Of a stretch of DNA of 64,000 nt, positions 23,200 to 51,296 are shown piece after piece. A program made the position numbers and the translations under genes. Within the stretch, counting starts at the first letter, position 1, and the number at the start of each line of letters is the position of its first letter. Source of the stretch: Pseudomonas sp. B6002 (lineage in GTDB: Bacteria; Pseudomonadota; Gammaproteobacteria; Pseudomonadales; Pseudomonadaceae); assembly GCF_013385985.1 (NCBI RefSeq), contig NZ_JACAOY010000006.1, forward strand, positions 202,119-266,118. The letters run 5' to 3'. The notes under the pieces were generated by a model. It saw nothing but the letters and a program-made list of their open reading frames with translations. It searched no databases and was not told the origin of the DNA.

Positions 23200-23218
23200 G
23201 ATTTTGCAGTGTTCTGAA

Positions 23219-24565: not shown

Positions 24566-25300
24566 ATGACCACCGCCGATCCGTATGCGTTATCTGCCGA
24601 ATTCTACGATGTGCTGTGCGAGCAGCAGTGGTTGCAACGCGGCGGGCCTATCGCCCGGGCGTTGCAGGAAGTGGACCCCAACGGGGTGATTCTGGATGTC
24701 GGCGCCGGCACCGGGCCGTGTGTTCAGGTGATCGCCGAGGCCTTGCCCAACGCGCGCATTCTTGCGGTGGAACCTTCGGCCGCCATGCGCGCGGCGTTGG
24801 TGGGGCGGATCATGCGCAGCAGCGATTTGCGCCAACGCGTCACCGTGTTGGCCGGCACCCTCGAGCAGGTCACCTTGCCGTCACGCCTGTCCGCGGCGGT
24901 CATCTGCGGCACCATTGGTTACCTCGATACAGCACAGCGCCACCACCTCTGGCAGCAACTGGCCGAGCGCCTGGATGAGCGCGGCCTCGTCATCGTCGAC
25001 GTGATGATGCTCAAGGCGCCGCAAACGGTGCCGCTGATGCAGGTCGCCAACGCGGACATCGGCGAACACACCTACCACGTCGCCCTGCAGGGTGAGCCCG
25101 CCGGCGGCGACCTGATGCACTGGACCCTCGACTATCAGGTGCGTGCCGGCGAGCAGGTGCTGCGCCAGTTCCAGGCCGACCATCACTGGCACACCTTCGG
25201 CCTCGAACAGGTCGCCGAAGAGGCCGGCGCCGCAGGGTTTGTGCTTGAGCCTTTGGGCGATGCGCTGATCCCCGCCGCAGTCTTGCGCAAGCGCAGTTAA
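24566..25300 (+). CDS. Class I SAM-dependent methyltransferase
   Basis: 244 residues with the glycine-rich SAM motif VILDVGAGTGPCVQVI at about residue 36 and the acidic loop ILAVEPSAAMRAAL after it. The frame is open upstream but the conserved fold starts near the ATG that gives MTTADPYAL. The substrate cannot be read from sequence. It lies between the sulfur island and the siderophore transporter and shares direction and a short gap with the latter, so it might methylate a siderophore intermediate (for example O- or C-methylation); equally it may be unrelated. There is no Fur-box match strong enough before it to decide. Confidence 0.7.
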   Translation: MTTADPYALSAEFYDVLCEQQWLQRGGPIARALQEVDPNGVILDVGAGTGPCVQVIAEALPNARILAVEPSAAMRAALVGRIMRSSDLRQRVTVLAGTLEQVTLPSRLSAAVICGTIGYLDTAQRHHLWQQLAERLDERGLVIVDVMMLKAPQTVPLMQVANADIGEHTYHVALQGEPAGGDLMHWTLDYQVRAGEQVLRQFQADHHWHTFGLEQVAEEAGAAGFVLEPLGDALIPAAVLRKRS

Positions 25301-25394
25301 TCCCGATTCGGGGGGCCGTTGCAGGTTACGGGCGGCGCCCCTTTGGCGGATCCCGTTAGATGGGCTTTTTCAGCATTTGGGGCAGGGTGAACAC

Positions 25395-26651
25395 ATGCAA
25401 TCGGTTGTCGAGACTTCCCCCGCCAGCCCGCGCGCGGCGGTGACGCGGGATTGGCGAATTGTGCTGGTGGTGGCCGGTCTGTACCTGGCCCAGGGCTTGC
25501 CGGTGGGACTGGCGTTCCAGGCGTACCCCACGCTGTTGCGCAACATGGGCGCCTCCCTCGACCTGGTGGCGTTGACCCCGTTGGCGAGCCTGCCGTGGGT
25601 GGCCAAGCTGTTCTGGGCCGCTGCCGTGGAAAACCGCTGGAGCCCGCGCCTGGGGCGGCGTCGCAGCTGGATTCTGCCGTTGCAGGCAGGCTCGGTGCTG
25701 ACCCTGGCGGCCATGGCGCTGGTGCCCTTTGATGTGCCGAACATGGGTCTGTTGCTGGGCCTGATTGCCTTGCTCTCGCTGTTCAGTGCCACCCAGGACA
25801 TCGCCGTCGATGGCCTGGCCGCCGAGCGTTTGCCGAGCGCCAGCCTGGGGCGCGTCAACACCTTCCAGGTGGCGGGTTTCATGGTCGGCATGCTGCTCGG
25901 CGGGCCGGGCACGATGCTGCTGTTCGATCACTTCAGCGCGCCGCTGGTCTTTACCTTGTTGGCGGCTGTGGTGCTGCTGTGCAGCCTGCCGGTGCTGTTC
26001 TGGCAGGAGCCCGCTGCATTGCCGGCGGCAGACAAAGCCAGCCTGCGGCGCTTCTTCAAACGTCGGTTTTCCGGGCGCCTGACGGCCCTGGTGATGCTGG
26101 TGACTCTTGGCGGCTCGACGTTCTTCGGCCTGGCCAAATTGATCCTGCTCGATGATGGCTGGTCGGTGAGTGATGTGGGGGTGCTGGCCGGTGTCGGGCA
26201 GTTGCTCACCATCATCGTTGGCTGTGGCGTGGCCGGGTTGTTGCTGCGCCATTACTCGCGCTGGAGCACCTTGCTGACGGGCCTGGCGATGGTCGGTTCG
26301 GCCGGAGTGCTGTGGCTGGGTCTGGTGCTGCAACCGGGCCTGTCGGGCATGGGGTATGTGAGCGTGGCGACAGTGCTGGGCGGGCTGGGCATTGGTGTCA
26401 CCAGCGTGGCGTCCTACACCTTGGCGATGCGCTTTGCGCAGTTGGGCGAACAGCCGGGCACGGACTGTTCGGTGTTCCAGGGCTTGCAGACCCTCGGCGA
26501 TATCCTGGTGTCTTCGGTGGCCATCGGCGTGGCGGCCAGCTGGGGTTACGCCAGTGGCCTGGGCGTCGGCTTGCTGGCCCTGGCTGCTGCGCTCGGCATG
26601 CTCTGGCATGTGCGGCGCAGCACCCGTGGGCTGGGGTTGGACGACGCCTAA
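25395..26651 (+). CDS. MFS transporter, AmpG/YbtX-like
   Basis: 418 residues with about twelve transmembrane helices. The start (QGLPVGLAFQAYPTLLRNMGASLDLVAL) and the loop SATQDIAVDGLAAERLP are hallmarks of the AmpG-like MFS group to which YbtX/Irp8 of the yersiniabactin locus belongs. Likely moves the siderophore or its iron-free form across the inner membrane (inference; direction not known). ATGCAATCG is preferred to the TTG 18 bases before it. Its stop overlaps the stop of the convergent thioesterase gene by four bases, leaving no room for a terminator. Confidence 0.82.
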   Translation: MQSVVETSPASPRAAVTRDWRIVLVVAGLYLAQGLPVGLAFQAYPTLLRNMGASLDLVALTPLASLPWVAKLFWAAAVENRWSPRLGRRRSWILPLQAGSVLTLAAMALVPFDVPNMGLLLGLIALLSLFSATQDIAVDGLAAERLPSASLGRVNTFQVAGFMVGMLLGGPGTMLLFDHFSAPLVFTLLAAVVLLCSLPVLFWQEPAALPAADKASLRRFFKRRFSGRLTALVMLVTLGGSTFFGLAKLILLDDGWSVSDVGVLAGVGQLLTIIVGCGVAGLLLRHYSRWSTLLTGLAMVGSAGVLWLGLVLQPGLSGMGYVSVATVLGGLGIGVTSVASYTLAMRFAQLGEQPGTDCSVFQGLQTLGDILVSSVAIGVAASWGYASGLGVGLLALAAALGMLWHVRRSTRGLGLDDA

Positions 26652-27442
26652 GGCATTTCAAGGGCCTGGGAGTGATTCACCCCCAGGTACCGGCTGACAC
26701 AGCGCAATACCGCCTCACGCTGGGGCACCAGGTAAAAATGCCCGCCTTCAAAGTGGTGCACCTGCAGGCCTTCACGGGTTTCCTGTGCCCAGGCCTCGGC
26801 ATCCCCGGGGTTCAGCTCTCGATCATCACGCCCCACCAGCACCTCGATGGGCACGTTCAAGCGCGCACGCTCGGGGGCGGGCCGGTACGTCTCGATCAAC
26901 TGGTAGTCATTGCGCAAGATCGGCAAGGCCATGGCCTGCAGTTCCGGTGAGGTTTGCAAGGCCTTGGGGCTGCCACCCAACGCGGCAATGTCTGCCAGCA
27001 ACCGCGCATCGTCCGCCAGGTGCAGGCAGCCGCCGTGATGACGTTCAGGGCCTTCGCGGCCTGACACCATCAAGCAGATCGGCAGCCTCAGCGCCTGGCG
27101 TTGCAAGGCCAGGCACAGCTCATGGGCCACCGCCGCGCCCATGCTGTGGCCGAACAGCGCATAAGGGCGGTCGAGCCATGCGGGCACGGCCGCCATCAGG
27201 GCATTCACCAGCGCATGCATGTGTGGGATCAACGGCTCATTGATGCGCTCTTCGCGCCCGGGCAATTGCACGGCGATCACTTCAATACTCGGCGGCAGCA
27301 GGCGCGCCCAATCGGCAAAAAAACGGGCGCCGCCGCCGGCATGGGCCAGGCAGAACAGGCGCTGGCGGGCCAGGGGGCGCGGTTCGAAACGGCGCACCCA
27401 GCGTTGCTGATGCTGTTGCAGGTGCAGGATTTCATTGAGCAC
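26648..27442 (-). CDS. Type II (editing) thioesterase, PchC/YbtT-like
   Basis: 264 residues, alpha/beta hydrolase. The start LFCLAHAGGGARFFADWARLLP and the nucleophile elbow ALFGHSMGAAVAHELC (Ser nucleophile) match the external thioesterases that clear misloaded acyl groups from NRPS carrier proteins; the catalytic His is in HHFEGGHFYLVP. The start is set at a GTG inside the end of the reductase gene because GAGGAA lies eight bases before it; an upstream ATG is possible. Last gene of the biosynthetic operon. Confidence 0.87.
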   Translation of the reverse strand: MLNEILHLQQHQQRWVRRFEPRPLARQRLFCLAHAGGGARFFADWARLLPPSIEVIAVQLPGREERINEPLIPHMHALVNALMAAVPAWLDRPYALFGHSMGAAVAHELCLALQRQALRLPICLMVSGREGPERHHGGCLHLADDARLLADIAALGGSPKALQTSPELQAMALPILRNDYQLIETYRPAPERARLNVPIEVLVGRDDRELNPGDAEAWAQETREGLQVHHFEGGHFYLVPQREAVLRCVSRYLGVNHSQALEMP

Positions 27443-28514
27443 GGGGCAGGTTCCTCGTTGGGGCAACCCAGGCCTGCATGGCCAGGGGCACCGGGGGCTC
27501 GGGGTGGATGGCTTGGGCGGGGCCCAGCACAGTGCCCAGTTGCTGCCAGGCTTTGCAGCAACTGAGGTGGAACTGTGCCAGGGCCGAGTCGTTGGGCTGT
27601 CCGATTGCGGCGTGTACCCGCAGCAAGGCGTGGGCGATGCTGTCGGGCCACAGGTCGCTGAACACCTCGCGCAAGGTCGGTGGCTGCGGATGACCGATCA
27701 GGCTGCTCACCGCCAGGTCCAGGGCTGGGGCGTCGCCGTCCATTTCCAGCACGCCCTGGGCATTGCGGTGCACGTGGGCGCGGGGGCTCCACAGCACGCT
27801 GGCGTGGGTGTCGGTCAGGCTCAACGTGCCGCCACGGGTGCCCAGCACAATACGGTGCAGCAACTGGGTGTGGTTGTCCGGATCGCCCGGGTGCATCTGG
27901 TTCTGCACCCGCAAATGCAGGGGGATTCCGGCCAGTTCGCCGCTGATGCTCATGAACGGCCCCACGGCTTCGGCGTGCAGGTTGAAGGCCCAGGGGCGCA
28001 GGCCGCCGAGGGCCTGGCCGAGCATCTCCACCAGCGGGAACAGCACGTGCACGCTGCAGGCGGCTTCGATGTACTCGGCTTCACGCAGGCTCAGCACATG
28101 GCGCGCCGCGTCGATAAAACACCGCACGGGCGCCAGGTCGCTGTAGAACGGATTGAGCCGGTACAGCACGCCGTGCTGCCGGGCCAGGCGCAGGCAGTCG
28201 ACCACTTCGTCGTGATGCACCGGGTGCTCCTGGACCACGTTGATGCCTCGGGCCAGCAATGCCTTGGCCAGCTCGGTGCCATGGCCGCCGACCACCGCCG
28301 AACGCACGGCCACGCAGGCCAGGTCCACCTCGGGCAGCTCCTCGACATTGCGGTACAGCGGCACCTGCCAGCGCCGGGCACAGGCCTCGGACGCTGCGCT
28401 GCCGCGTCCCAGGATGCCCACCACGTGGTAGTGCGCCGGCAATCGCGCAAGGCCTTGCAGGTAGACATTGCCGAAGGTGGTGCCGCATACAATCACCCTT
28501 AATACCGTGCTCAT
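27432..28514 (-). CDS. Thiazolinyl imide reductase (PchG/YbtU-like)
   Basis: A 360-residue Gfo/Idh/MocA-fold oxidoreductase. The NADPH-binding N-terminus is VLRVIVCGTTFGNVYLQGLAR, and VVQEHPVHHDEV and YRLNPFYSD are the motifs I recognise from Irp3/YbtU and PchG, which reduce one carrier-bound thiazoline to a thiazolidine. GAGGAAGG precedes the ATG, which overlaps the preceding gene's stop. It should act in trans on the NRPS-bound intermediate. With three rings predicted, which ring it reduces is open. Confidence 0.88.
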   Translation of the reverse strand: MSTVLRVIVCGTTFGNVYLQGLARLPAHYHVVGILGRGSAASEACARRWQVPLYRNVEELPEVDLACVAVRSAVVGGHGTELAKALLARGINVVQEHPVHHDEVVDCLRLARQHGVLYRLNPFYSDLAPVRCFIDAARHVLSLREAEYIEAACSVHVLFPLVEMLGQALGGLRPWAFNLHAEAVGPFMSISGELAGIPLHLRVQNQMHPGDPDNHTQLLHRIVLGTRGGTLSLTDTHASVLWSPRAHVHRNAQGVLEMDGDAPALDLAVSSLIGHPQPPTLREVFSDLWPDSIAHALLRVHAAIGQPNDSALAQFHLSCCKAWQQLGTVLGPAQAIHPEPPVPLAMQAWVAPTRNLPRAQ

Positions 28515-29608
28515 AACACGCCTTCCTCTTCGGCCGTGGTCGTCTGCGCCGCCAGGTTGACGATGCTCAGGGCCTGGCACGCAGAGTCGGCTTGCACGGC
28601 CGTGATCACGTCGTCGGGCATCAGGCAGTCACCGGCCCAGTGCGCGCCACGCCAGGACGGATCGCGCAGCAACTGCAACGTCGCACACACCGCGACGCAG
28701 GCACTCAGCCCATAACTGTCCTGGCTGCTCAGTACCGCGCGTTGGCGCACGGCTTGCCCGCCACGCCAGCCGCTGAGTTCCACGCTCAGCCGGTAGTACG
28801 GGCGACGGCCGAGCAATTGCAGTTCAGCGGCGTGCACCAGTTGCGCCACCGCAGCGGGCAGGGCGCTCGGGTCCTGGCTCAGGCGTTGGCATGACGCAGC
28901 GATCAGCGCCGGGATCTCGGCCTGGTCGAATACGTTATGAAAGCTCGCCCGGGGCACACCAAGGGTGCGCGCCAGGCGTTGCAGTTCATCGGTGAGGTAG
29001 GCACTGCAAAACACCGCTTCGGGAAAGCCCGCCAGGCGCTGAGCCTGCTGCTCGATTGGCGATGCTTGCACACGGCCTTCTACCCATTGGGCGTTCGGCG
29101 TACCAAAGCCGCCCAGGGCGCTGAGCAACACATCGGCACCGCCGGCCTGGCTGCAATGCTCGCGGCCACCGGCGTGAATGTGCAGGCTACTGACCCGGTC
29201 GAAGCCCCGATTCGCCATCCAGCGCGGCAGCAACGCAGTAAGGCCCGGAAACACCCCGGCGCCGATGATTGAAGGCTGACGGGCACCCTGTAACGCCGTC
29301 AGCAACGCCGCATTGCCAAAGGCATCCACATACGCCGCACCCGCCGCCTGGGCGGCTTGGGCCACGCGGTCACCCACTTGCCACGACGGCCCCGCGCAGT
29401 TGAGGACCACCTGGCAGCCGCTGCAAAACGCCGCCAGTGCCTGTGGGTCGAATACATCCAACACCCCTCCATCGACATCTTCTGGCCAGCTTTGAGCCCG
29501 GCGCTGGCCTGCACGCACGTGCACGTCCGCCTGCCGCCGCAACTGAGCCAGCGCCGCGCTGCCCACGGCCCCTCCGGCGCCGACCAGTCCAACCAAACGC
29601 CGGCTCAT
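28511..29608 (-). CDS. Saccharopine dehydrogenase-like NAD(P) oxidoreductase in siderophore operon
   Basis: 365 residues. An N-terminal Rossmann fold (LVGLVGAGGAVGSAALAQL) and the segment VVLNCAGPSWQVGDRVAQAAQAAGAAYVDAFGN are typical of the saccharopine-dehydrogenase-like family; PSIIGAGVFPGLTALL follows. True saccharopine dehydrogenase is not expected here. It is locked into the operon by ATGA overlaps on both sides, so a step in ring modification is likely, for example a second imine reduction. It shares its motif pattern with the gene at 62818-63927. Pyochelin and yersiniabactin loci of P. aeruginosa and Yersinia have no such gene; the enantio-pyochelin locus has a different second-type reductase (PchK) whose relationship I cannot test. 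Confidence 0.75.
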   Translation of the reverse strand: MSRRLVGLVGAGGAVGSAALAQLRRQADVHVRAGQRRAQSWPEDVDGGVLDVFDPQALAAFCSGCQVVLNCAGPSWQVGDRVAQAAQAAGAAYVDAFGNAALLTALQGARQPSIIGAGVFPGLTALLPRWMANRGFDRVSSLHIHAGGREHCSQAGGADVLLSALGGFGTPNAQWVEGRVQASPIEQQAQRLAGFPEAVFCSAYLTDELQRLARTLGVPRASFHNVFDQAEIPALIAASCQRLSQDPSALPAAVAQLVHAAELQLLGRRPYYRLSVELSGWRGGQAVRQRAVLSSQDSYGLSACVAVCATLQLLRDPSWRGAHWAGDCLMPDDVITAVQADSACQALSIVNLAAQTTTAEEEGVL

Positions 29609-32600
29609 GCGGGCACCTGCGCGCCCAGCAGCACGGGCAACAGTTGGCTGACATGGGGCGCCTGCATGCACGACACATGGTCGCCGCTGATGGTCTGCAA
29701 GCTGATGTCGCCCAGCGCCAAATCATTCCAGAAACCGCGCATATCGCCTTGCAGGCCCGGCAGGAAATGCAGGGTCTCGTCGTCGAGCAGGATGCGCAGG
29801 TCACCGGTAAACGGCGCCGGTTGGTAACGCGCCACGGCATTGAGGCTGTGGCGGAACACGCGGAACAGCGCCTGCACTTGTTCGGCTGGCATCGGCTCGG
29901 CTTGGGTCTGTACCTGAGCGGCGAGGGCTTGCAGACGCCTGTCGCTGGGTTGCTCGGCGAGCTGGCGGTAGCTGGCCGCGATGGGCGCCCATTCACCATC
30001 CAGCTGTTGCAGGCAATCGGCCGGGAGTTGCCGGCCGTGGCGCTCGATCAAGTGCGCCAGGGCACTGTGTAAACCGGCGTCGTCGACCGCATGCCCGGCC
30101 GCCTGGATATCGGCCCCGAGCAAGCGGCCGAAGGCGCGTTCCAGCAACAGTTCATCGGCGATTTCATAGCGGAAGCGGTCGCTGCTGATTATGCTCACGG
30201 TGCCCACCTGCGCACCGGCTTCCAGCAAGCAGCGGGCGACCTCAGTGGCCAGCAGGCCGCCCATGCAATAGCCCACCAATTCGAAGCGCAGGTTGCCGTG
30301 GGCCAGCAGTTCACTGGCATACCGTGCGCCCAACTGTTCGATCAATTGTTCGGCGTCCACCTTCAGGTACGCCGCTTCATCCAGCAGGCTCAGGCCCAGG
30401 ATCGCACCTTGGCGTTGCGGCGCCGTGCGCAGGGCGGCGAGCAGGCTGCGGTAAGGGGCGAGGGTGCCGCTGCCGTCGTGCAGCAACACATGCACGGTGC
30501 TGCACGCCGGGTCGCGAGCCGGCGCCAGTACGCTCAAGCACGATGCGTCGGTGGCGTGGCCGGTGGGCGCTTGCGCCGGCGCATCCTGCAAGCGTGCGGC
30601 GATGGCCTTGACCGTGGGTTCACGCAGCACTTCGCGCAGCAGGCGATCCCATTCCCAGCCTGAGGTTTCCGGCAGTTGCTCGCGCATCTTGGCGACGATC
30701 TGCGCCACCAGCAGCGAGTCGCCACCGGCTGCGAAAAAGTCCTGGTCCCGGGCCAAGTCGGTGCAACCCAACGCTTGGCTCCAAAGCTTGGCGATACGTT
30801 GTTCCAGATCGGTTTGCGGCGCTTCACCGCTGTCCATCACGCTGCTGCCTTGAGCCTGCAGGCGCTGGGCCAGGCGTGCGCGATCGACCTTGCCATTGGC
30901 CGACAGGGGCAGGCTTTCGAGCACTTGCAGCTGGCTTGGCACCATGTAGCCGGGCAGGCGCTGGTGCAGGTAGTCCTGCAGTTGTTCACTCCCCAGCGCC
31001 ACGCGACGCGCCGGGAAGCGTGTGACAAATGTGGTCTGGCCCGCGCAATCGAGCACGTCCTGGGCCTGGGGCCACGCGGCCACCAGTTCGGCGCCGGCGT
31101 CGCTGAACAACGCCTGCCATTGGGCGCGGCTGATAAAGGTCTGGTCACTGCCGGCGCGCAAGTCGGTGAAGCCGTCCAGGCCTTCCTTGAATTCCATGGA
31201 GGTCAGCAATGAAAGGATCTCGCGGGTGGCCTCCATCACCAGCAAGTGCCCACCGGGCGCTGCCAATTCGCGCAGGCTGTTCAACACCGTGGGCGCATGG
31301 CGGGCGTTGTGAAGCACGTTGGCGCAGACGATCAGGTCCCAGCTTCCCGCGTTCAGCCCCTGGGTCAGGGCATCGCTGTTGATGTCGAACAGGCCGAAGC
31401 GCACCCACGGTCGGTCGGCAAAATGCTCACGTGCTTCGTTGATAAAAAACGTCGAGACGTCGGTGAACAGGTAATCCACGGCAAACCCATCCAGGGCCGG
31501 GATCAAGTCGCGGCTGGTGCCGCCCACCCCGGCGCCGATTTCCAGCACCCGTAGCGGCAGGCCGAGGGCGGCGCGCTCACGGGCAATGTGCTGGGCGCTG
31601 GCGCAGATCACCTGGTTCATGCAGCGCATCAACAGGTTTTCGTGATAGGCCGCCAGCGCGGTGTCCATGCTGCCCTGGGGGAACAGCAGCGCCAGCGGGT
31701 CGACCTCGCCACTGAGCAACTGCGGCAGGCGCTCGCTGGACTCGTGCAAATAACGCAGCAGTTCGGCGCCATAGTTCAGGCGTTGCTCCAGGGCATTCAT
31801 GGCCTGCCAGCACACGGCGCGCTGGTCGGCCGCGGGGGCTTCGCCCAGGCGGTAGCCGTCGGCGTCTTGCAACAGCCAGCCTTCGTTGACCAGCGCCTTG
31901 AGCCAGCGGCGCATCAGGCGTTGATGGGCCGGCGCAACACGGCATTGCTGCTGCACCTGGGCCAGGCTGTGGCGGGCCTTGGCATCGGTGAACAGCCCGG
32001 CGTCGCGCAGGGTCTTGAGGATGTCGAGCAGGGCGATACGGTTGGCCATCGCCACCCATTCGGCGAACAGGCTGCGGTCCAGCTGTTCGGTGGCCTGGGC
32101 GCCACATGCCAGGGCACTGTCGGCCAGGGGCGCGGCGCTGCTGTCGGTGTTCAGGTGGCGCGCCTCGACGAACGCGGCCAGGCGGCGCTCCATCGGGTTG
32201 TCACCGCTGAGCAGCACCACGCCGTGGGCCACGTCCGGGTGTTCGTTGAGCAGGCTTTCGATTTCGCTGAGTTCGATGCGGTGCCCGCGCAACTTGACCT
32301 GGGTGTCTTCGCGGCCGAGGAACTCGATCTGCCCGTCGGCACGGTAGCGGCCGAAGTCGCCAGTACGGTACAGCCGCGCGCCGCTGTGGGGGTGGCGGAC
32401 AAAACGCTGGTCGCTGCGCTCGGGGTCGTTGAGGTAACCGTCTGCCAGGCCCACGCCGCCGATGTACAACTCGCCGGCCACGCCGTCCGGGCGGTCCTGG
32501 AATTGTTCGTCCAGCACATGGAACTGCTGGTTGGCCAAGGGGGTTCCGTAGGGAATGCTGCGGGCGTTGGCGGGGACGCTGTCGATCTCATGGCCAATCG

Positions 32601-41000: not shown

Positions 41001-41453
41001 GTCATCAAACCGCGCACGCAACATGCCGTGCCATTGCTGCAACCCTTGCCAGGCAAAGGCTAGTTGCTGCGGGTCGAGGGCGTCGCCGTCCAGCTCCAGG
41101 TAAGCGTGACAACCGACGCCGCCCAGCACCTGCTCGGCGCCTCGGCCAATCCAGTAGGCGTGTTGCACGTCGGTGAGGGCGAAGGGCGCGGCAGGGTCGA
41201 TCACGACAGCCGCGTTGGCCGCTTTACGCGGGGTGGCCGTGAGGCGTGGCAGCCAGTGGGCGAGGGTCGGTTGTTCGATCAGGTCGGCGAAGGTCACGGG
41301 GGCGCCGGCCTGGCGCCATTGGTTGACCAGGCGCATCAGGTGCAGGGAGTCCAGTCCCAGCTCGATCAGGTTGGCTTGATCGTCCAGCGCCGGGCCACCG
41401 TGCAGCAGCGCGCCAATCTGTTCGCGCAGGTGTTCGACCGTCAGCGCACTCAT
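35076..41453 (-). CDS. Nonribosomal peptide synthetase: ArCP-Cy-A-PCP-Cy-A-PCP
   Basis: 2125 residues. Aryl carrier domain with Ser36 in LGLDSLHLM; Cy1 with DLLVADVHS near 224; A1 with FTSGSTGEPKGV near 668; PCP1 with LGGDSLLAT near 1053; Cy2 with DYLTLDGLS near 1244; A2 near 1688; PCP2 with LGGDSLSAT near 2070. Both A domains read DLYNWSMIW, a variant of the cysteine code. PchE has one Cy-A-PCP and yersiniabactin HMWP2 has two Cy but a single A, so two complete modules in one chain is unusual. Neither A domain carries the inserted epimerase/methyltransferase-like domain of PchE and HMWP2: A8 (QVKVRGHRIELGEI) runs directly into A10. Loads salicylate and builds two thiazolines. Confidence 0.92.
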   Translation of the reverse strand: MSALTVEHLREQIGALLHGGPALDDQANLIELGLDSLHLMRLVNQWRQAGAPVTFADLIEQPTLAHWLPRLTATPRKAANAAVVIDPAAPFALTDVQHAYWIGRGAEQVLGGVGCHAYLELDGDALDPQQLAFAWQGLQQWHGMLRARFDDEGRQQILDDGMSALQVHDLRGLAPAAREQALQATRDSLSHRQLAVEHGEVAGLQLSLLPEGRTRLHFDLDLLVADVHSLHLILRDLAALYRGERLTEAGRDWHFAHYLAQRPAPKASAAQYWQARLDHLPAGPALPLACEPEAIEQVRFTRRQQRLTPAVWQRLREAAAKRQLTPAMLLAGAFAQVLGRWSEVPHFLLNLPLFDRQGDTPGLDQVVADFTNLLLLEVDLRQPGSVAQQLMQVQAQFHRDMAHADYSGVQVQRDLALRGAGQRSFSPVVFACNLGTPLLGQRDAQTLGALTQMISQTPQVWLDHQVYEEDGALLLAWDAQDALFPEGLLDAMFGAYLDLLHNLQHDNAWDAPAFAHLPAQQHQVRQQVNATATAIAPRTLHQAPFAISGERLALINGDQRITYAQLQQGALRIAAALLEQGVQPGDAVGVCLPRGHRAVLALYGVLTAGACYVPLSPSQPQARRERICQRAAIDTLIDPAWLDHALAFAPLPAPVAVSPDSPAYVIFTSGSTGEPKGVQISHRAACNTLDDLNQRFSITENDRLLAVSALDFDLSVYDLFGVLAVGGSVVLLDEAQRRDASMWNRLIQQHQVTLWNSVPLLLDMLLTVADTLPLRMAWLSGDWIGLDLPARLHTASNGGCRLIAMGGATEAAIWSNYQPVDLPLPAHWRSIPYGTPLGNQQYRVVDSLGRDCPDWLAGELWIGGAGVADGYRGAPDLSAERFVEHQGARWYRTGDLGRYWPDGRLEFLGRRDHQVKVRGHRIELGEIENALLVQPRIRQAVALAVGTPLHLLAAVVPTEGALCTEELRQALGTQLPDYMLPSQWLLLDTLPLSANGKLDRHALVTLAEQAHPQHATANEAPCGEREQQVAAIWAELLPGAQVYRQSDFFRLGGDSLLATQCSARLRRAGLANAQSLRQLFATPRLAEFVAQLQTPGVQAEQRLVANPGQRHQPFPLTEVQQAYWRGQSQGLPLSCGTTYLIELDGAALDIPRFEQAWDRLIQRHEMLRAQLVGDDQQVILPEVPPMQVHRHQAPDAAAARQRLAECWASRPRHQWPMFEVHAVSYGEHGWRVGLFFDYLTLDGLSIKRLLAELALLYTQPHTQLPALDLSFRDYVLQVQPDPAGLALAQAYWQARLDDLPGPPALPLHTAPQQLGEVHFSRREFRLAAPQWQALRQRARESGITASVLLLSVYAQTLARWSDGQPHTLNLTLFDRQDLHPQIGQVLGDFTSLAPVSVYPRAHASFLSEAQAVQAQVADVLQHAACSSIWVQRERARRVGPQAAALPVVFTSTLGLADDLLQDLPEGFPDIVAGGLSETPQVWLDHQLYEHRGALVLCWDAVDALFPEGLLDAAFASYTQALLGLIDADWQAPLALPLPGNQAQIRAQANATAVEIAPRTLLDAPFAIASRRLALIDGERRVSYGQLREGALRVAAWLQAQGVQPADAIGVHLPRGADAVIALFGVLAAGACYVPMGMRQPLERRQRIEQRAAIRLTLDAEQLALALHSEALPAPVAVSVDSPAYVIFTSGSTGEPKGVQISHRAACNTLDDLNQRFVIGAEDRLLAVSALDFDLSVYDLFGVLAVGGSVVLLDEEQRRDASAWQRLIQQHQVTLWNSVPMLLDMLLTVADTLPLRQAWLSGDWIGLDLPARLHAASHGRCQLIAMGGATEAAIWSNYQPVCLPLPRHWQSIPYGRPLGNQCYRVVDSQGRDCPDWVTGELWIGGRGVAMEYRGAAELTAERFVEHDGQRWYRTGDMGRYWPDGSLEFLGRRDQQVKVRGHRIELGEIDNALLACPQVRQALTVTLGNPPSLAAAVVVDGEVSLEVLRQQLRQRLPDYMLPASLHLLNELPLSANGKADRNALRQCLADIATEHSDAPQGAQEREMAEIWSEVLQRPIPGRHSDFFLLGGDSLSATRLVETLKRRRVCLAPLSLRELFAHPSIAALCDYLGSPTEQHAEHFEEGTL

Positions 41454-44413: not shown

Positions 44414-44454
44414 GGTTCGGGCTCCTTGTGAGGGTCGCTGGAAAGCTGGTTTGT

Positions 44455-44473
44455 TGAGAATCATTCTCCTTAT
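44455..44473 (-). promoter_or_regulatory. Fur-box-like site before siderophore biosynthetic operon
   Basis: The minus strand reads AAGGAGAATGATTCTCAAC, with the GAGAATGATTCTC palindrome characteristic of Pseudomonas Fur sites, 42-60 bases before the ligase/synthase start. It lies in the 255-base divergent gap and could also repress the ABC transporter genes. Confidence 0.72.
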
Positions 44474-44527
44474 TCAACGAATGGACTGCCCGAAACCGAA
44501 CGTCATGGCCCTGATCCGAATTTTTTG

Positions 44528-44668: not shown

Positions 44669-46450
44669 ATGAAAACTGAACAGGCCGACGCGCCAACGCC
44701 GAGCTGGCGTTGGCTGCTACGGGGCCAGGGGCGACGATTGGGCCTGGCGGTGGCCATGGCGGTGCTGGCAGCGGCGGTGGAGTTGCTGCCGTTTTTCCTG
44801 CTGGCCCAAGCGGTGAACCGCGTGGTGCAGGGCGGGCCTGGCGTGGGGGCTGACCTGTTCACCCTGGCCGGCTGGATGGCGGCGGCCCTGCTGGGCAAAT
44901 ACCTGCTGTACACCCTGGCGTATTACCTGAGCCATGTGGCGGCGTATCGCGTGTTGCTCAACACCCGGCGTGCGTTGGTGCGGCATTTGTCGTGGGCGCC
45001 GCTGCCGTGGTTGAGCCGCTTGAGCAGCGGCGAACTCAAGCAGCGGGTGATCCAGGATGTGGAGCGCATGGAGCAATTTATCGCCCACCACAGCGTCGAG
45101 TGTGTGGCGGCGTTGTTGAGCCCGATCTGGGTATTCATCGCCCTGTGCCTGCTCGATTGGCGCCTGGCGTTGTGTGCCTTGTTGCCGGTGCCGTTGGCGC
45201 TGCTGGCCCAGGCCTGGATGATGCGCGGCCTGGGTGAGCGGCTGGCGCAGTACGCCGGGGCGGTGGATGACCTGGACGGCGCGACCCTGGAGTTCTTGCG
45301 CAGTGCACCGTTGATGAAAGCCTTCCGCCAGGACGCCCGTTCGTTCAAGCGCATGCGCGAGGCCTTGGCCCATTACCGGCAATTGATAGGCCGCATGATC
45401 GGCATGACGGTGCCCGGCTGGTCGGTGTTCGTGGTGTTGCTGGGGGCCAACGTCGTGGTGCTGTTCCCCGTGGGGTTGTGGTTGTACGGCGCGGGGCAGT
45501 TGACCCAGGCCGAGCTGGTGCTGGTGTTGATCCTGGGCACCGGCATGCTGCGGCCGTTGTTACGGGTGGCGCGGCTCAATTCCCAGGTGCAGGAAATCAT
45601 GGGCGGCGTGCGTCGGTTCGCGCCGTTGCTGGTGTGGCCGCAGCCTGCGGGCGGGCGAGATCAAGCCTTGAGCCCGCCGCTGGAGGTGATGTTTGAAGGG
45701 GTGTCGTTCAGCTATGACCCGCAGCCCGTGTTGCAACACATCGACCTGCACTTGCCTGCCGGGCAGATGACTGCGTTGGTGGGGCCCTCTGGCAGTGGCA
45801 AAAGTACCCTGGCCTGGTTATTGGGTGGGTTGCTGGACGCTGAAAGCGGGCAGGTGCGGGTGAACGGTGAGCCGTTGTCGGCACTCAGCGAGGCTGCCCG
45901 CGCAGCGACGGTTGGGGTGGTGTCCCAGGACGCGTTCATCTTCCAGGGCACGTTGCTGGATAACCTGCGCATCGGCAGTCCCGACGCGACCCTCGAACAA
46001 ATCGACAGCGCCCTGCGCGTGGCCCAGGCCGAGGACTTTGTACGGGCCTTGCCAATGGGGCTGAACACGCCGATGGATGAGCGTGGCGTACGTTTGTCCG
46101 GGGGCGAACGCCAGCGTATCGGCCTGGCCCGGGCGCTGCTGGCGCAGACGCCGATCCTGGTGCTGGACGAGGCCACGGCCTTTGCCGACAGCCGTACGGA
46201 GCAGCGCTTTTACCAGGCGCTGCGCGCCACCTGGCCGGACAAGACCTTGCTGGTGATTGCCCACCGCCTGACCAGCATTTGCGACGCCGAACAGATCGTG
46301 TTGCTGGAGCGCGGGGTAATCCAGGCATCGGGCACTCACGGCCAGTTGCTCGCGCGCAGCGGCACTTATGCCACGCAATGGCAGCACCAGTTCGACAGCG
46401 AAGACTGGACCATCCGAGAAGGGAGTACGCAGCATGCACGGGTTGATTGA
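44669..46450 (+). CDS. ABC transporter, fused membrane-ATPase half-transporter (YbtP-like)
   Basis: 593 residues: six transmembrane helices in about 1-320, then an ATPase with Walker [16 protein letters not shown]-loop VSQDAFIF, signature RLSGGERQRIGLARALL and Walker B ILVLDEATAFAD. The type IV exporter-like fold matches YbtP/YbtQ, which together import ferri-yersiniabactin, and PchH/PchI of pyochelin loci. ATGAAAACTG is preferred, with GGGGA just before; a second ATG six bases upstream is possible. Overlaps its partner by 17 bases, so the two form a heterodimer. Confidence 0.88.
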   Translation: MKTEQADAPTPSWRWLLRGQGRRLGLAVAMAVLAAAVELLPFFLLAQAVNRVVQGGPGVGADLFTLAGWMAAALLGKYLLYTLAYYLSHVAAYRVLLNTRRALVRHLSWAPLPWLSRLSSGELKQRVIQDVERMEQFIAHHSVECVAALLSPIWVFIALCLLDWRLALCALLPVPLALLAQAWMMRGLGERLAQYAGAVDDLDGATLEFLRSAPLMKAFRQDARSFKRMREALAHYRQLIGRMIGMTVPGWSVFVVLLGANVVVLFPVGLWLYGAGQLTQAELVLVLILGTGMLRPLLRVARLNSQVQEIMGGVRRFAPLLVWPQPAGGRDQALSPPLEVMFEGVSFSYDPQPVLQHIDLHLPAGQMTALVGPSGSGKSTLAWLLGGLLDAESGQVRVNGEPLSALSEAARAATVGVVSQDAFIFQGTLLDNLRIGSPDATLEQIDSALRVAQAEDFVRALPMGLNTPMDERGVRLSGGERQRIGLARALLAQTPILVLDEATAFADSRTEQRFYQALRATWPDKTLLVIAHRLTSICDAEQIVLLERGVIQASGTHGQLLARSGTYATQWQHQFDSEDWTIREGSTQHARVD

Positions 46451-48146
46451 AGGGCTGCGCCAAGTGGTGAGCATTGCCGATACGCGCTCGCCGCGCCTGT
46501 GGTGGGGCTTGGGTTTTCGCGTGTTGGAGCGGGCGTGTGCGATTGCGCCGTTCTTTCTCGGGTTTGTGTGGCTGCTTGAACCCGCGATGCCTTCACTGGT
46601 GTGGCTGGGCGTGGGCTTGGCGGCACTGTTGGTAGCGCAGTTGGTGTGTTCGCACTTCGGCCAGCTCAACAGTTTTCTCGGCGGTTATGAGTTGATGCAC
46701 GGTTACCGGCGCCACTTGCTCGACCATGTGGCGCATCTGCCGTTGGGCGCGCTTCGCCAAGAGAGGATCGGGCAACTGGGTGAGCGCTTGACGGAAGACG
46801 TCAAGCGTATCGAAACCATTTTCACCCACGTGCTCGGTGAGTTGCTGGCATCGCTGGCGGTGCCGTTGCTGTTCATCGGCGTGCTGGTGTGGGTGGACTG
46901 GCGCCTGGCCCTGGCGCTGCTGGTGACGTTGCCCTTGGCGTTTGTGTTGTTGAACCGCTTGAGCGGGTTTTTCCTGGCGGCGGGCCGGCGCAAGCAGCAC
47001 AGCTTTATGCAGGCGGCGGGGGTGCTGGTGGAGTTTATCGGCGGGCTGCGCACCTTGCGTCTGTTCAATCGCGCCGGGGCGTGGCGCGAACGGTTGGACC
47101 AGCAGTTCGGCGAGATTGAACGTCACAGCCTGGGGGTGGAAGTGTGGGGCGGCAGCGCCATCCAGTTGTACCGGTTGTGCGTGGACTTGAGCCTGGTGCT
47201 GCTGTTGCTCGTGGCGGGCCTGCTGGCGAATGCCGAGCAACTGCCGGCGCTGACCTGGATGTTGTTCGCGCTGGTGGCGCCGCGTTTGCTCGACCCCTTG
47301 CTGGATGTGGCGGCGTACCTGAGCGAACTGCGCGGCCTGGCCCAGGCGCAAGCGCGGTTGCAGGCCTTGCTGGAGATGCCTGAGGTTGCCGAGCCCTCGC
47401 AGCCGGTGGCGCCACAGGGCCACGGCGTGCGTTTTTGCGAGGTGGGCCTGCGTTATCCCGAACAGCCGGAGTGGGCGTTGCAGGGGTTGGATTTTGCCGT
47501 GGAGCCAGGGCAGATGCTGGCGATTGTCGGGCCTTCCGGCGCCGGTAAAAGCAGCGTGCTGCATTTGCTGGCGCGCTTTTATGACCCGCAGCAGGGGCGT
47601 ATTGAACTGGGGGGCGTGGACGTGCGCGACATGCGCCTGGACCAGCTGTACGCCGCGTGCAGTTTCGTGTTCCAGGACGTGCAACTGTTTGACGCCAGCG
47701 TGCTCGACAACGTGCGCCTGGGCAAGCCCGACGCCAGCCTGGCGCAGGTGAGGCACGCCTGTGCCCAGGCCGGTTGTGATGAGTTTATCCAGCGTTTGCC
47801 CCAGGGGTATGACACGCCCATCGGCGAGAACGGCCAGCGGTTGTCGGGGGGCGAACGTCAGCGTTTGTCGATCGCCCGGGCGTTGCTCAAGGACGCGCCG
47901 ATTCTGTTGCTGGACGAAGCCACGGCGTCGGTCGACCCGCTGGCGCAGCATGAGATCCAGCGCGCGCTGTCACGCCTGGCCCAGGGCCGTACGCTGATCA
48001 TGGTGGCGCACCGTTTGCGCACGGTGCGCCATGCCGATGTGATTCTGGTGCTGGACCAGGGGCGTATCGTCGAGCGCGGCCGCCACGCGCCGTTACTGGC
48101 ACGTGGCGGGCTGTATGCCGAGTTGTGGCAACAGCAGGCGGGGTAA
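46434..48146 (+). CDS. ABC transporter, fused membrane-ATPase half-transporter (YbtQ-like)
   Basis: 570 residues with the same layout as its neighbour: transmembrane domain to about residue 310, then Walker A GPSGAGKSSVLHLL, signature RLSGGERQRLSIARALL, Walker B ILLLDEATASVDP and the H-loop MVAHRLRTV. Both ATPase sites look complete, unlike heterodimeric exporters with one degenerate site. Converges on the AraC gene, three bases apart at the stops. Confidence 0.88.
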   Translation: MHGLIEGLRQVVSIADTRSPRLWWGLGFRVLERACAIAPFFLGFVWLLEPAMPSLVWLGVGLAALLVAQLVCSHFGQLNSFLGGYELMHGYRRHLLDHVAHLPLGALRQERIGQLGERLTEDVKRIETIFTHVLGELLASLAVPLLFIGVLVWVDWRLALALLVTLPLAFVLLNRLSGFFLAAGRRKQHSFMQAAGVLVEFIGGLRTLRLFNRAGAWRERLDQQFGEIERHSLGVEVWGGSAIQLYRLCVDLSLVLLLLVAGLLANAEQLPALTWMLFALVAPRLLDPLLDVAAYLSELRGLAQAQARLQALLEMPEVAEPSQPVAPQGHGVRFCEVGLRYPEQPEWALQGLDFAVEPGQMLAIVGPSGAGKSSVLHLLARFYDPQQGRIELGGVDVRDMRLDQLYAACSFVFQDVQLFDASVLDNVRLGKPDASLAQVRHACAQAGCDEFIQRLPQGYDTPIGENGQRLSGGERQRLSIARALLKDAPILLLDEATASVDPLAQHEIQRALSRLAQGRTLIMVAHRLRTVRHADVILVLDQGRIVERGRHAPLLARGGLYAELWQQQAG

Positions 48147-48149
48147 GGG

Positions 48150-49040
48150 TTATTCCAGCGCGCCGCGCCGGGCATCGCGCGGCAGTACGCCGTACTGTTT
48201 GCGAAACGCCACGCTGAAGTGGCTGATGTTGCTGTAGCCGAGCATCGAGGCGGTGTCGGTCACCCCATGGTGCTGCAGCAGTTGGCGCGCCTTGCCCATG
48301 CGTTCGCGCTGGAACAGCGCGTAGATGCTCACATCGAACATGGCCTTGAACCCACGCTTGAGCTTGAGCTGGTTGAGCCCGGTCTCGCGGGCCAGTTGCT
48401 CGATGGTGGGCGCGGCGCTGAGGTCCATCAGCAGGCGTTCGCGGGCGGCCAGCAGTTGCTTCTGTTCACGCCGGGAAATCTGCTCGCTCTGGTCCTTGGG
48501 GTTGAAGGCCTTGAGATGCCAGGCGAGGAATTCCAGGCTGGCCGAATGCACCAGCAGCGGCGAGGCTGAATCATCCCCCAGCAGGCGTTCCAGGCGCAGG
48601 GCGGCGTCCTTGATGCGCTGGTTGCCGTGGGTGGTGTGCAGGCAGAAGTTGCCTTCGATGCTGTCGCCCAGCCGCTGGTAATCCTCGCCGGCCAGTTCGC
48701 TGAGGCGCTGGGGCGTGATGCGCAGTTCGAGGTTGCGGTGGGCGGGAGCAAACGCCAGCTCGAAGCGTTCGGCAGGGGCGAAGCTGGTCATCAGTTGGTC
48801 TTTGCCCAGGTGCAGGTCTTTGCGGCCGACGCGCACGTCGATATCGCCGTTGAGCATGCAGCTGAAGTGCAGGTGAGGGTTGTCGTCGATGGTGCTGATG
48901 CGCACCGCGTCCGTGGCGTTGAAGGTCACCAGGGAGACTTCCAGGCCGGGTTGGACCACTTGGGTTCGCACGTGACAGCCAGGCGGGCCGGCCTGGGGCG
49001 CGGTTTCGTCAAAGAAGGTGGAAGCGCGAAGCTGGTACAT
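48150..49040 (-). CDS. AraC-family activator of siderophore genes, PchR-like
   Basis: 296 residues, the length of PchR. The N-terminal half is a small-ligand sensing domain (LHFSCMLNGDIDVRVGRKDLHLGKDQL); the C-terminal 100 residues carry two HTH motifs (IEQLARETGLNQLKLKRGFKAMF and ASMLGYSNISHFSVAFRKQYG). PchR and YbtA bind the ferri-siderophore and activate synthesis and uptake genes, and an equivalent role is likely here. CGAGGA lies six bases before the ATG. Its own promoter has both a Fur-like site and the GTTACAACCTT motif, suggesting iron repression and self-control. Confidence 0.87.
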   Translation of the reverse strand: MYQLRASTFFDETAPQAGPPGCHVRTQVVQPGLEVSLVTFNATDAVRISTIDDNPHLHFSCMLNGDIDVRVGRKDLHLGKDQLMTSFAPAERFELAFAPAHRNLELRITPQRLSELAGEDYQRLGDSIEGNFCLHTTHGNQRIKDAALRLERLLGDDSASPLLVHSASLEFLAWHLKAFNPKDQSEQISRREQKQLLAARERLLMDLSAAPTIEQLARETGLNQLKLKRGFKAMFDVSIYALFQRERMGKARQLLQHHGVTDTASMLGYSNISHFSVAFRKQYGVLPRDARRGALE

Positions 49041-49189
49041 GGTCGTCCTCGCAGGCAACCGCCCAGGTGACCTGGGCAGGGGGCAGACGGCTCGCAAGTG
49101 TCCTTGTTCCTGCGCGGACCCCTGTTACGGAGAGGCCAGCGCATTGCCCGGAAATCCCTGCGAGCTTTCAAGATGGATCGCAGGCTATT

Positions 49190-49210
49190 ACTAATCGTTC
49201 TCATTTGCAA
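49190..49210 (-). promoter_or_regulatory. Fur-box-like site before the activator gene
   Basis: The minus strand contains GCAAATGAGAACGATTAGTA, a good Pseudomonas-type Fur sequence around the AATGAGAA core, 150-170 bases before the AraC start and just downstream of the receptor stop. Confidence 0.55.
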
Positions 49211-49219
49211 GGTTGTAAC
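49209..49219 (-). promoter_or_regulatory. Candidate AraC/PchR-type activator site, copy 2
   Basis: On the minus strand GTTACAACCTT, identical to the copy at 44528-44538. It abuts the Fur-like site, so activator and repressor could compete here. Confidence 0.4.
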
Positions 49220-49226
49220 GTTAGTC

Positions 49227-51296
49227 TCAGAACTCCATGCCCACCCGCACGCCCAGGGTACGCGGCTGGCCGGCGATGACCATGCCGTTGGCCATGGCGC
49301 GGGTGAAGTAGGTGGTGTCGCCCAGGTTCTTGCCGAACAGGCCGATGGTCCACTGCTTGAGGCGATAATCGATGTTGGCGTCCCACAGGGTGTAGGCGCC
49401 CTGGGACAGCGTGGCGTTCGGGTATAGATAGGATTGGCCCTGGCGCGTCAGGCCGGTGCCGACGGTGATGTGGTCGGTGGCCGCCCAGTCCATCGACATG
49501 CCGTAGCTGTGCTTGGGTGTGCTGGGGAATTGCTTGCCGGAATAGTCCACCGCGCCACGGTTGTAGTCGTCGAACTGCGCCTCAAGCAACGCGGCGTAGG
49601 CATTGACCTGCACCGACTCCACCGGACGCACCGTGGCGGTCAGTTCCAGGCCTTTGTTGTGGGACTTGCCGGCGTTGCTGGTGGAGGTCTGGCCGCCGCC
49701 GTCCTCGACGATCACCTGCTGGTCGCGCAGGCGGGTGTAGAACACGTCGGCGCCGACTTCCCACACCTTGCTCGGCGCGCGGTAGCGGTAGCCCAGCTCG
49801 GCGTAGCTGCCGTATTCCGGGTGGTAGGCATCGCCAGCCGCGCTGGCGGTGGTGGAGTAGGTGTTGAAGCCGGACGCCTTGTAACCGCGCGCCAGCACCA
49901 GGTAGGTGAAGTGCTGGTCGTTGGGGCTGAACTCCAGGCTGAAACGCGGCAGGGCCACGGTTTCGCTGACCTTGCGGTCGTTGAACGATTCCAGGCTGGC
50001 GAAGCTGGTGTCGGGCACGCCGTCGCCATTGCTGTCGAACATGCCGCCCTGCGTGCTGCTCCAGTCCATGGTGCGGCGGTTGTGTTCCACCCGCAGGCCG
50101 ACGGCGGCACGCCATTGCGGCTGGAAGCGCCAGCCCAGCTCGCCGAAGGTGGCGACGGTGTCACCCTCGACCTTGGCCTTGGTGGCACTGAGGAAATACG
50201 GGCTGAGGTCGAAGGTGTAGGGCGCGTCGCGGCGCACATGGGACAGGAAGCCGCCCACCAGCCAATCGATGTTGCCCTTCTGGCCGTTGAGTCGGGCTTC
50301 ACCGGTGTACTGGCGGGTCTTCATGTCGTAGCCGGCGGTGCCGCCGAAGATCGATTTAGGCAACCAGTAATCCCACTCGGTCTGGTTGGCGCCGACGTTG
50401 ACCACCAGTTGCGTGTCATCGGCAAAGCGCTTGCGGTATTCGCCGGTGAACAGGGTGTATTCGGTGTTGTTGGTGCCGGCGTCGGTGGCGTTGGACTGGT
50501 ACTTTTTCGCCAAGTCGCGGGTGGCGAAATAGTCGTTGTCGCCATGGGTGTTCATGTGGTGCAAGCCGAAGCGCCACTCGCCGCCGTCGTCGTCCAGGTG
50601 CAGCAATTTGATACGGCCGAAACCGCTGTCCCAGCCGGCAGTATCGTGGCGGCCTAGGGTGGCGTTGGCGATCATGCCATCGTTCTTTTCGCCGCCGACG
50701 GTCACCCGCACGGCGGTGTTTTCAGTGAGGGGCAGGTTGCCGGTGACTTCGGCGCGCTGCTGGTTGTGGGTGCCGTATTCGAGCTTGACCTTGCCACCCG
50801 CCGTGAACTCCGGGTCTCGGGTGCGCAGGGCCACCAGGCCGCCCATGCTGTTTTGCCCGTACAGGGTGTTTTGCGGGCCGCGCAGGATTTCCACTTGGTC
50901 GATGTCGTACAGCTGGCCGAGCACCAGGCCGTTCATGGGCACGCCGTCGATGTACACGCTGTTGCTGATGCTATCGCCCTCATCATCGGAAAAACCCAGG
51001 CCACGAATGGTCAGCGACGGCGTGTGCTGGGTGAAGGTGCTGAAGTACAGGTTGGGTTGGCGCTGGGCGACTTCGCCAAGGGTGTCGAGGTGGCTGTCCT
51101 CGATTTTTTCGCCCTTGACCACGCTGACGCTGTTGGTGGTCTTGAACTGCGGCGTGTCCTGCTTGGTGGCCGTGATGACGGTGGCATCCAGCTCATCGAC
51201 GGTCACATCGGCGGCCATCGCCGATTGCATCAGTGGCAAGGTGCAAGACAAAAACAAGGCACAGCGTACGGCTTGGGAGAGGGAAGAGCGTTCCAT
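49227..51296 (-). CDS. TonB-dependent outer-membrane siderophore receptor (FyuA-like)
   Basis: 689 residues: a signal peptide (about 1-28, ending QSAMA), a TonB box in LDATVITATK, a plug domain with SLTIRGLG, SVYIDGVPM, VEILRGPQNTLYGQNSMGG and LRTRDPEF, and a 22-strand beta barrel ending in ...RVGMEF with a terminal Phe, the outer-membrane insertion signal. Size and the plug pattern match the FyuA-type receptors for ferri-yersiniabactin more than the FptA pyochelin receptor. Presumably takes up the Fe(III) complex made by this locus. Fur-box-like sequence lies just upstream. Confidence 0.9.
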   Translation of the reverse strand: MERSSLSQAVRCALFLSCTLPLMQSAMAADVTVDELDATVITATKQDTPQFKTTNSVSVVKGEKIEDSHLDTLGEVAQRQPNLYFSTFTQHTPSLTIRGLGFSDDEGDSISNSVYIDGVPMNGLVLGQLYDIDQVEILRGPQNTLYGQNSMGGLVALRTRDPEFTAGGKVKLEYGTHNQQRAEVTGNLPLTENTAVRVTVGGEKNDGMIANATLGRHDTAGWDSGFGRIKLLHLDDDGGEWRFGLHHMNTHGDNDYFATRDLAKKYQSNATDAGTNNTEYTLFTGEYRKRFADDTQLVVNVGANQTEWDYWLPKSIFGGTAGYDMKTRQYTGEARLNGQKGNIDWLVGGFLSHVRRDAPYTFDLSPYFLSATKAKVEGDTVATFGELGWRFQPQWRAAVGLRVEHNRRTMDWSSTQGGMFDSNGDGVPDTSFASLESFNDRKVSETVALPRFSLEFSPNDQHFTYLVLARGYKASGFNTYSTTASAAGDAYHPEYGSYAELGYRYRAPSKVWEVGADVFYTRLRDQQVIVEDGGGQTSTSNAGKSHNKGLELTATVRPVESVQVNAYAALLEAQFDDYNRGAVDYSGKQFPSTPKHSYGMSMDWAATDHITVGTGLTRQGQSYLYPNATLSQGAYTLWDANIDYRLKQWTIGLFGKNLGDTTYFTRAMANGMVIAGQPRTLGVRVGMEF

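Follow-up and report, generated by a model that had tools for sequence, protein, structure and literature searches.

Described relatives and the assembly plan

Sorangibactin, coelibactin, mupirochelin and equibactin are the closest described relatives of a gene cluster at positions 24,566 to 51,296 of a 64,000-nucleotide stretch of DNA from Pseudomonas sp. B6002. We call the whole stretch the window and count all positions in it; the host genome is 6.68 Mb. The cluster encodes a salicylate-capped nonribosomal peptide synthetase (NRPS) system, and as a whole it is probably best explained as an apparently intact, iron-repressed locus by which a three-cysteine salicylate siderophore would be made and taken up. 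Papers cited by PMC number are represented here by excerpts of their text. Sorangibactin is assembled by the seven-domain SrbC and the five-domain SrbD; its thioesterase (TE) has a Cys nucleophile, and the product consists of a salicyl-oxazole, two N-methylthiazolidines and a homocysteine thiolactone (PMC10127202). Its tailoring genes encode a saccharopine-dehydrogenase-like (SacDH) protein SrbE, methyltransferases (MTs) SrbF/G, a P450 SrbH, an Irp3-like SrbI and a VOC protein SrbJ; sorangibactin A was no longer made after srbE/F/G or srbI had been deleted, and coelibactin's own product has resisted isolation (PMC10127202). Mupirochelin is made by Pseudomonas sp. NCIMB 10586, in which MchA/MchB were predicted to use Cys/Thr-Cys-Cys, with Thr proposed first, and in which similar tailoring genes are found (PMC10080011). 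Mupirochelin was reported at 509.1345 and sorangibactin C at m/z 509.1332; both are C22H28N4O4S3 and their gene sets are similar (PMC10080011, PMC10127202). By analogy with sorangibactin, the puzzling fourth residue of mupirochelin might be a homocysteine thiolactone and not the result of iterative module use. Equibactin (eqb, PMC3672683) shares with the window salicylate, three cyclisation (Cy) domains, an MT domain, predicted thiazoline rings and the lack of a polyketide synthase (PKS), and differs in a single adenylation (A) domain, an E domain and a TE in which Ser is replaced by Ala.

Pfam scanning of eight cluster proteins revealed three carrier, two condensation-type and two AMP-binding domains in NRPS 1, and TubC_N, condensation-type, AMP-binding, methyltransferase, carrier and thioesterase domains in NRPS 2. 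The order is aryl carrier (ArCP)-Cy-A-peptidyl carrier (PCP)-Cy-A-PCP, then Cy-A(MT)-PCP-TE, exactly as a preliminary description had read it, coordinates and frames included. No ketosynthase was found in the eight proteins, and neither ketosynthase nor acyltransferase in P0001-P0003; thus there is no yersiniabactin-style PKS module. The three Cy cores, DLLVADVHS, DYLTLDGLS and DLLVADFVS, all fit DxxxxDxxS when recomputed, PVVF and TPQV motifs were found in the window Cy domains, and Cy1 aligns full-length to the solved Cy domains of PchE, HMWP2 and EpoB. Degeneracy of Cy1, which has FACN where Cy2 and Cy3 have FTST, was considered and rejected: FACN is common to Cy1 of marine, Pseudomonas G003, Azospirillum and enantio-pyochelin-type lines, and PchE has FASN. 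Pfam, NCBIfam and the substrate codes described below support a salicylate cap, three Cys-type modules, one embedded MT and a probable siderophore, as first proposed.

This plan is not new. The preliminary description knew of no compound matching it, but SrbC/SrbD form the same assembly line and have a known product, and the loci of Streptomyces sp. SAT1 and S. clavifer give the exact domain string of the window; therefore that claim was wrong. The close mupirochelin and equibactin systems weaken it further, and with the coelibactin-like loci they led us to reject the idea that the plan is absent from print. The sorangibactin/coelibactin family shares with the window the NRPS domain order, the SacDH-like and Irp3-like reductases, a salicylate synthase and ligase and a Cys-nucleophile TE. 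In the window, both reductases adjoin the NRPS genes, as they do in loci L027, L028 and L030. Sorangibactin, however, starts with Ser (made into an oxazole by the P450) and has two proposed trans MTs, a VOC protein and a homocysteine thiolactone, whereas the window has a Cys-type A1, one trans MT and a fused ligase-synthase, and no P450 or VOC family was matched in its eight scanned proteins. P. corrugata subgroup strains with mupirochelin also lack the P450 (PMC10080011). Mupirochelin resembles the window in its Pseudomonas host, its MchA/MchB line and its SacDH, thiazolinyl imide reductase (TIR), ABC pair, TonB and AraC genes. It differs in its proposed first unit Thr, in its gene order and in obtaining salicylate from an isochorismate synthase and a lyase; the two trans MTs of loci of its type resemble embedded MTs rather than P0008 (Table 1).

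Substrate codes and relatives of the modules

The A codes were recomputed at what we take to be the GrsA positions, and the reported codes held: DLYNWSMIW for A1 and A2 and DLYNLSLIW for A3. Codes taken at these positions agree with published ones, which for Cys include DLYNMSMI of HMWP2 and DLYNLSLI of PchF (PMC3672683). The W at position 299 also occurs in a PchF-like protein of a putative pyochelin locus of B. arboris (DLYNWSLIW). As read from sequence, the A1/A2 code is Cys-like, and the product likely contains three cysteines.

Between modules 1 and 2, compared in 30-residue blocks, residues 662-931 reach 80-100% protein and 76-92% DNA identity. This stretch holds the substrate pocket; elsewhere in the A domains protein identity drops to 43-67%, and in the Cy domains to 30-63%. 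Such homogenisation is as expected if A1 and A2 share one substrate. In the A tree, A1 of three strains forms one cluster and A2 of these strains another; therefore the homogenisation is older than the strain split. In G003, Pseudoalteromonas and Vibrio, too, each line has its first three A domains in one cluster. Branch lengths are zero for the three A domains of the Vibrio lentus NRPS (L012 1886-11812), which thus has near-identical tandem modules.

The trees were built on domains from 11 of the 18 loci of a later set together with earlier loci, and 10 of 57 Cy rows were left out as near-duplicates. Mupirochelin-type lines enter with one A1 (G010) and no first Cy, as the stretches taken end there; long-branch warnings from the tree tool concern, among others, A1 of G010 and the marine fourth A domains. 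First-module A domains read DLWQLGLVH in both Streptomyces lines and DLFNLGLIH in G010, and the first two A domains of Pantoea both read DLYSMGLIH. These five Ser/Thr-type domains form one clade (100/98) that excludes window A1. Window A1 is instead sister to window A2, and the pair with its orthologues joins the Cys A domains of Pseudoalteromonas, Vibrio and G003 at 98/98. The Cy domains of the window sort into three clades by position. The first Cy domains of G003 and the marine lines share a clade with window Cy1 (94/91), and the second and third ones of these lines share one with Cy2 (100/100); Cy3 falls with the Cy domain of the second NRPS in the marine lines (100/99). The window ligase groups with the Pseudoalteromonas ligase (91/89). 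Support is lower for placing A3 with the fourth A domains of the marine lines (83/90), and weak for placing the embedded MT with those of enantio-pyochelin-type lines and Azospirillum (82/82).

These trees bear on whether the locus is a plain coelibactin/sorangibactin/mupirochelin type, in which A1 would load Ser or Thr and give an aryl-oxazoline followed by two thiazolidines, perhaps released with homocysteine thiolactone. The shared domain order speaks for it, as does the core NRPS1-NRPS2-SacDH-TIR with its type II thioesterase and MT, which is as in the Streptomyces loci; sorangibactin A1 was itself mispredicted as Cys (PMC10127202). However, window A1 has S301 and W331 where the Ser/Thr-type A domains seen have G301 and H331, the two kinds part in the A tree, Cy1 falls among Cys-type lines and not with Streptomyces or Pantoea Cy1, and P450 and VOC are unmatched. 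The Cys nucleophile of the window TE (GYCMG) might also seem to favour thiolactone release. We rejected it as a sign of this because all 20 TEs compared carry a Cys, including three window-type, one pyochelin-type and seven enantio-pyochelin-type TEs; no TE was matched in the yersiniabactin-type line of that comparison. A hidden Ser/Thr domain at A1 was rejected on its code and its position outside the Ser/Thr clade, and we consider the Ser/Thr-start type unlikely. Because A1 has a Cys code and lies outside that clade, the predicted composition still differs from those of sorangibactin, which starts with Ser, and mupirochelin, for which Thr is proposed. The earlier suggestion of an undescribed compound thus survives for the composition, not for the plan.

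Ulbactins are polycyclic compounds derived from three cysteines. They were reported, together with two new thiazolinyl imine reductases, from Pseudoalteromonas flavipulchra S16 (PMC12819058), and therefore the marine lines (Pseudoalteromonas piscicida 2515 and Vibrio lentus) are, by analogy, probably ulbactin loci. Literature searches on Pseudoalteromonas piscicida with thiazoline and on a fused salicylate synthase found nothing relevant. The Cy domains and the A1/A2 pair of the window group with these lines and with G003, so that a fused polycyclic thiazolidine from three cysteines, rather than a linear acid, has to be considered. The Pseudoalteromonas line also has a ligase-synthase fusion. 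The marine lines differ from the window in that three Cys modules are followed by a fourth one with a reductase domain (NAD_binding_4) at its end, and no embedded MT or TE was matched in them; the window ends in MT-PCP-TE and has no terminal reductase for ulbactin-type release. An ulbactin-like product is therefore very improbable. In the marine second NRPSs (L011 29660-34189; L012 11809-16506), the fourth A codes have diverged (DLWNMSQIW, DLLNFSLVT) on long branches, and these domains may be degenerate. Pseudomonas G003 (C1:3511000-3525000; L018, L019) has a ligase-synthase fusion beside a single NRPS of ArCP and three Cy-A-PCP modules, all three A codes being DLYNMSMIW, and no MT or TE was matched in this NRPS. 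Taken together, the window looks like a mosaic, as judged from its domains: a Cys core of marine type combined with MT, TE and tailoring of the coelibactin/pyochelin type. The trees give good support to the affinity of the Cys core to the marine lines, but not to any origin of the tailoring genes.

Selection, putative iron control and predicted product

Compared with Pseudomonas sp. P7548, six genes of the window have protein identities of 95.9-99.0% and dN/dS (nonsynonymous to synonymous rate ratio) of 0.044-0.187; therefore the operon is under purifying selection in that comparison. NRPS 1 is 83.3% identical across 1636 residues to its counterpart in P. viridiflava p11.D4 (dN/dS 0.138), and the two reductases are 78.6% and 84.0% identical to those of Pseudomonas genome G192, in which contig C189 appears to correspond to the p11.D4 record (dN/dS 0.147 and 0.159). 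This selection bears on another explanation, that the line skips one module and makes a pyochelin/yersiniabactin congener with two rings, such as enantio-pyochelin. The enantio-pyochelin loci of the P. protegens type, whose gene order we presume in part, share with the window a PchE without an inserted domain, a PchF with MT and TE, a PchK-type reductase and PchC. They differ in having two modules and a PchA/PchB route to salicylate, and no Irp3-type reductase was found in seven 20-kb stretches of this type. The embedded MT is nearest by path length to enantio-pyochelin-type PchF, and a PchK-type reductase, PchC-like TE and FptX-like permease are present in the window. Yet there are three complete modules, not the two of pyochelin and enantio-pyochelin; they have intact Cy, A and carrier motifs under purifying selection and each Cy in a different positional clade, which leaves module skipping only a slim chance.

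Putative Fur-like boxes were scored against a Fur consensus, with 500 mononucleotide shuffles per stretch that preserve base content only; as background, 14 of 751 overlapping 170-base window stretches reach a score of 13 or more. Boxes precede the biosynthetic operon and the TonB receptor gene, and a weak one precedes the MT-permease pair (Table 1). Together with the TonB receptor and the permeases, they point indirectly to production repressed by iron and to uptake of ferric complexes. The true start of P0003 is likely at 44413, because the first ATG falls within the Fur-like box. A 13/19 match lies at 49184-49202, just beyond the tested AraC (P0010) stretch.

Searches of the genus used even samples of a larger group, 399 Pseudomonas genomes, or 200 for the ligase-synthase fusion. 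Window-type loci occur in two of 399, own included. P0004 homologues (E 1e-25 or better) occur in 21 of 399 and adjoin NRPS and salicylate genes in every one of the 21; by gene order compared with published loci, rather than reference sequences, the neighbourhoods are two window-type (own and G192), 12 mupirochelin-type and seven enantio-pyochelin-type. One mupirochelin-type locus, L054 (G372:C1:6113000-6132999), is spread across several reading frames, which would fit decay or poor sequence quality. In S. venezuelae, a homologue of pchK is described as indispensable for reducing the thiazoline (PMC11626248). P0008 homologues (E 1e-20 or better) occur in the same two of 399 genomes as the window-type loci, and P0008 is also found in P7548; it is thus present in both other carriers of the locus. 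In two coelibactin-like Streptomyces loci, P0008 matches a stand-alone MT (170-176 bits) and an MT fused to an imide reductase (137-138 bits). Because of this fusion, reduction followed by N-methylation of one ring is suggested. The ligase-synthase fusion was matched across most of its length in two of 200 Pseudomonas genomes, own included, and it occurs in Pseudoalteromonas and, as one tblastn piece, in a Klebsiella plasmid.

On the three-cysteine reading, P0003 would make salicylate from chorismate and then load it, and the three modules would incorporate one cysteine apiece and close each into a thiazoline ring. Reduction of rings 2 and 3 would fall to the Irp3/PchG-type and PchK-type reductases, two unrelated proteins encoded directly after NRPS 2; N-methylation would be carried out by P0008 on ring 2 and by the embedded MT on ring 3. 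The TE would hydrolyse the chain to a salicyl-thiazoline-(N-methyl)thiazolidine-N-methylthiazolidine carboxylic acid, which would be exported, and its ferric complexes would return via the TonB receptor and the ABC or FptX-like permeases. Three rings, one of them N-methylated, had been predicted at first; the three Cys-type modules stand, but the rings are likely more reduced and more methylated. Salicylate and three fully cyclised cysteines have the calculated formula C16H15N3O3S3. With two reductions and two N-methyls it becomes C18H23N3O3S3, [M+H]+ 426.0974; two reductions and one methyl give 412.0818, and one reduction and one methyl 410.0661. The corresponding iron adducts are calculated at 479.009, 464.993 and 462.978; a product containing Ser would lie at 410.120, and one extended by a homocysteine thiolactone at about 525.11. 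The exact pattern of reduction and methylation is tentative, only a little short of an even balance.

Several points weigh against this reading. The most serious is that the family already holds one case of a wrong substrate call from the code: antiSMASH called all sorangibactin A domains Cys, and feeding showed that A1 uses Ser (PMC10127202). As sorangibactin gains homocysteine thiolactone at release, release of a free acid is not certain. The substrate of P0008 is assigned by homology, and both reductases could act on one ring. SacDH and TIR trees have no supported nearest line; the salicylate synthase tree likewise has none. The NRPS 2 counterpart in P. viridiflava p11.D4 (L010 4729-7217) lies in two overlapping frames across Cy3, which is either a frameshift or a sequencing error. 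Finally, two of six promoter stretches tested (ABC and AraC P0010) have no Fur-like box above chance.

Gene content and outlook

The features are collected in Table 1. The six biosynthetic open reading frames (26648-44464, minus strand) overlap end to start by 4-11 bases. P0003 scores 613.5 bits against DHB_AMP_lig, below the NCBIfam cut-off of 723.55, and 449.3 bits against salicyl_syn TIGR03494, above the cut-off of 325.15. P0005 matches Irp3/YbtU in the PDB (E 2e-38), and the adjacency of P0007 and P0008 is repeated in loci L071 and L072.

Table 1. Genes and putative Fur-like boxes of the siderophore locus (positions in the window)
Feature	Positions	Strand	Evidence
P0008, trans-acting SAM methyltransferase	24566..25300	+	Homology to MTs of two coelibactin-like Streptomyces loci
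P0007, RhtX/FptX-like siderophore permease	25377..26651	+	TIGR02718 294.5 bits, below cut-off 356.15
P0006, type II thioesterase, PchC/YbtT kind	26648..27442	-	PF00975 167.1 bits
P0005, TIR, Irp3/PchG family	27432..28514	-	TIGR01761 310.4 bits, cut-off 188.8
P0004, SacDH reductase, PchK/SrbE/MchE kind	28511..29608	-	PF03435 32.1 bits
P0001, NRPS 2, TubC_N docking-Cy3-A3(embedded MT)-PCP-TE	29605..35079	-	1824 aa; Pfam, motifs
P0002, NRPS 1, ArCP-Cy1-A1-PCP-Cy2-A2-PCP	35076..41453	-	2125 aa; Pfam, codes, Cy motifs
P0003, fused salicyl-AMP ligase and Irp9-type salicylate synthase	41450..44464	-	NCBIfam; fusion also in L009, L011, G003
P0011, ABC half transporter	44669..46450	+	Homologues within relatives' loci
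P0012, ABC half transporter	46368..48146	+	Similar to P0011; pairing kept in relatives; later in-frame starts possible
P0010, AraC-type regulator, PchR/YbtA position	48150..49040	-	HTH_18 63.7 bits
P0009, TonB-dependent outer-membrane receptor	49227..51296	-	Pfam plug and beta-barrel matches
Putative Fur-like box ahead of biosynthetic operon	44450..44474		14/19 to consensus; reached by 1/500 shuffles
Putative Fur-like box ahead of TonB receptor gene	51329..51347		14/19 to consensus; 0/500 shuffles
Weak putative Fur-like box ahead of MT-permease pair	24517..24535		13/19 to consensus; 30/500 shuffles

A second AraC-type gene (51397-52554, minus strand) lies behind the TonB receptor gene, with a 13/19 Fur-like match at 52388-52406 (2/500 shuffles), tested around an assumed start. 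The left flank (13925-24301) encodes a protein with four rhodanese stretches, two luciferase-like monooxygenases, an acyl-CoA-dehydrogenase-like protein and an NMT1-like binding protein; this set is reminiscent of organosulfur use and neighbours a cysteine-rich pathway.

No published study of a Cys-only version in Pseudomonas was found in a search without most subscription journals. Pyochelin-like clusters were reported in a Pseudomonas collection (PMC8719888). The excerpts of the P. gingeri siderophore literature (PMC7696170, PMC5876480) have nothing on the window locus, and no match to it appears in those of PMC13238742, PMC8719888, PMC8704066, PMC6836290, PMC6814731 and PMC11934131. The assembly plan is already known; what appears new is a Cys-only composition in a Pseudomonas setting, with a product that is predicted. 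In its most specific form, an undescribed linear salicyl-thiazoline with two consecutive N-methylthiazolidines, made by a marine ulbactin-type Cys core and coelibactin-type tailoring, with synthesis and activation of salicylate in one protein, the proposal is possible but somewhat less than evenly balanced.

The locus means that the coelibactin architecture exists in Pseudomonas with a Cys-type first module, as its code predicts. It provides a natural comparison for the roles of two different reductases and a trans methyltransferase in such pathways, and the ligase-synthase fusion and the homogenised A cores are handles on the gain and loss of Cys modules. The predicted masses make the locus testable by a single comparison by liquid chromatography-mass spectrometry.

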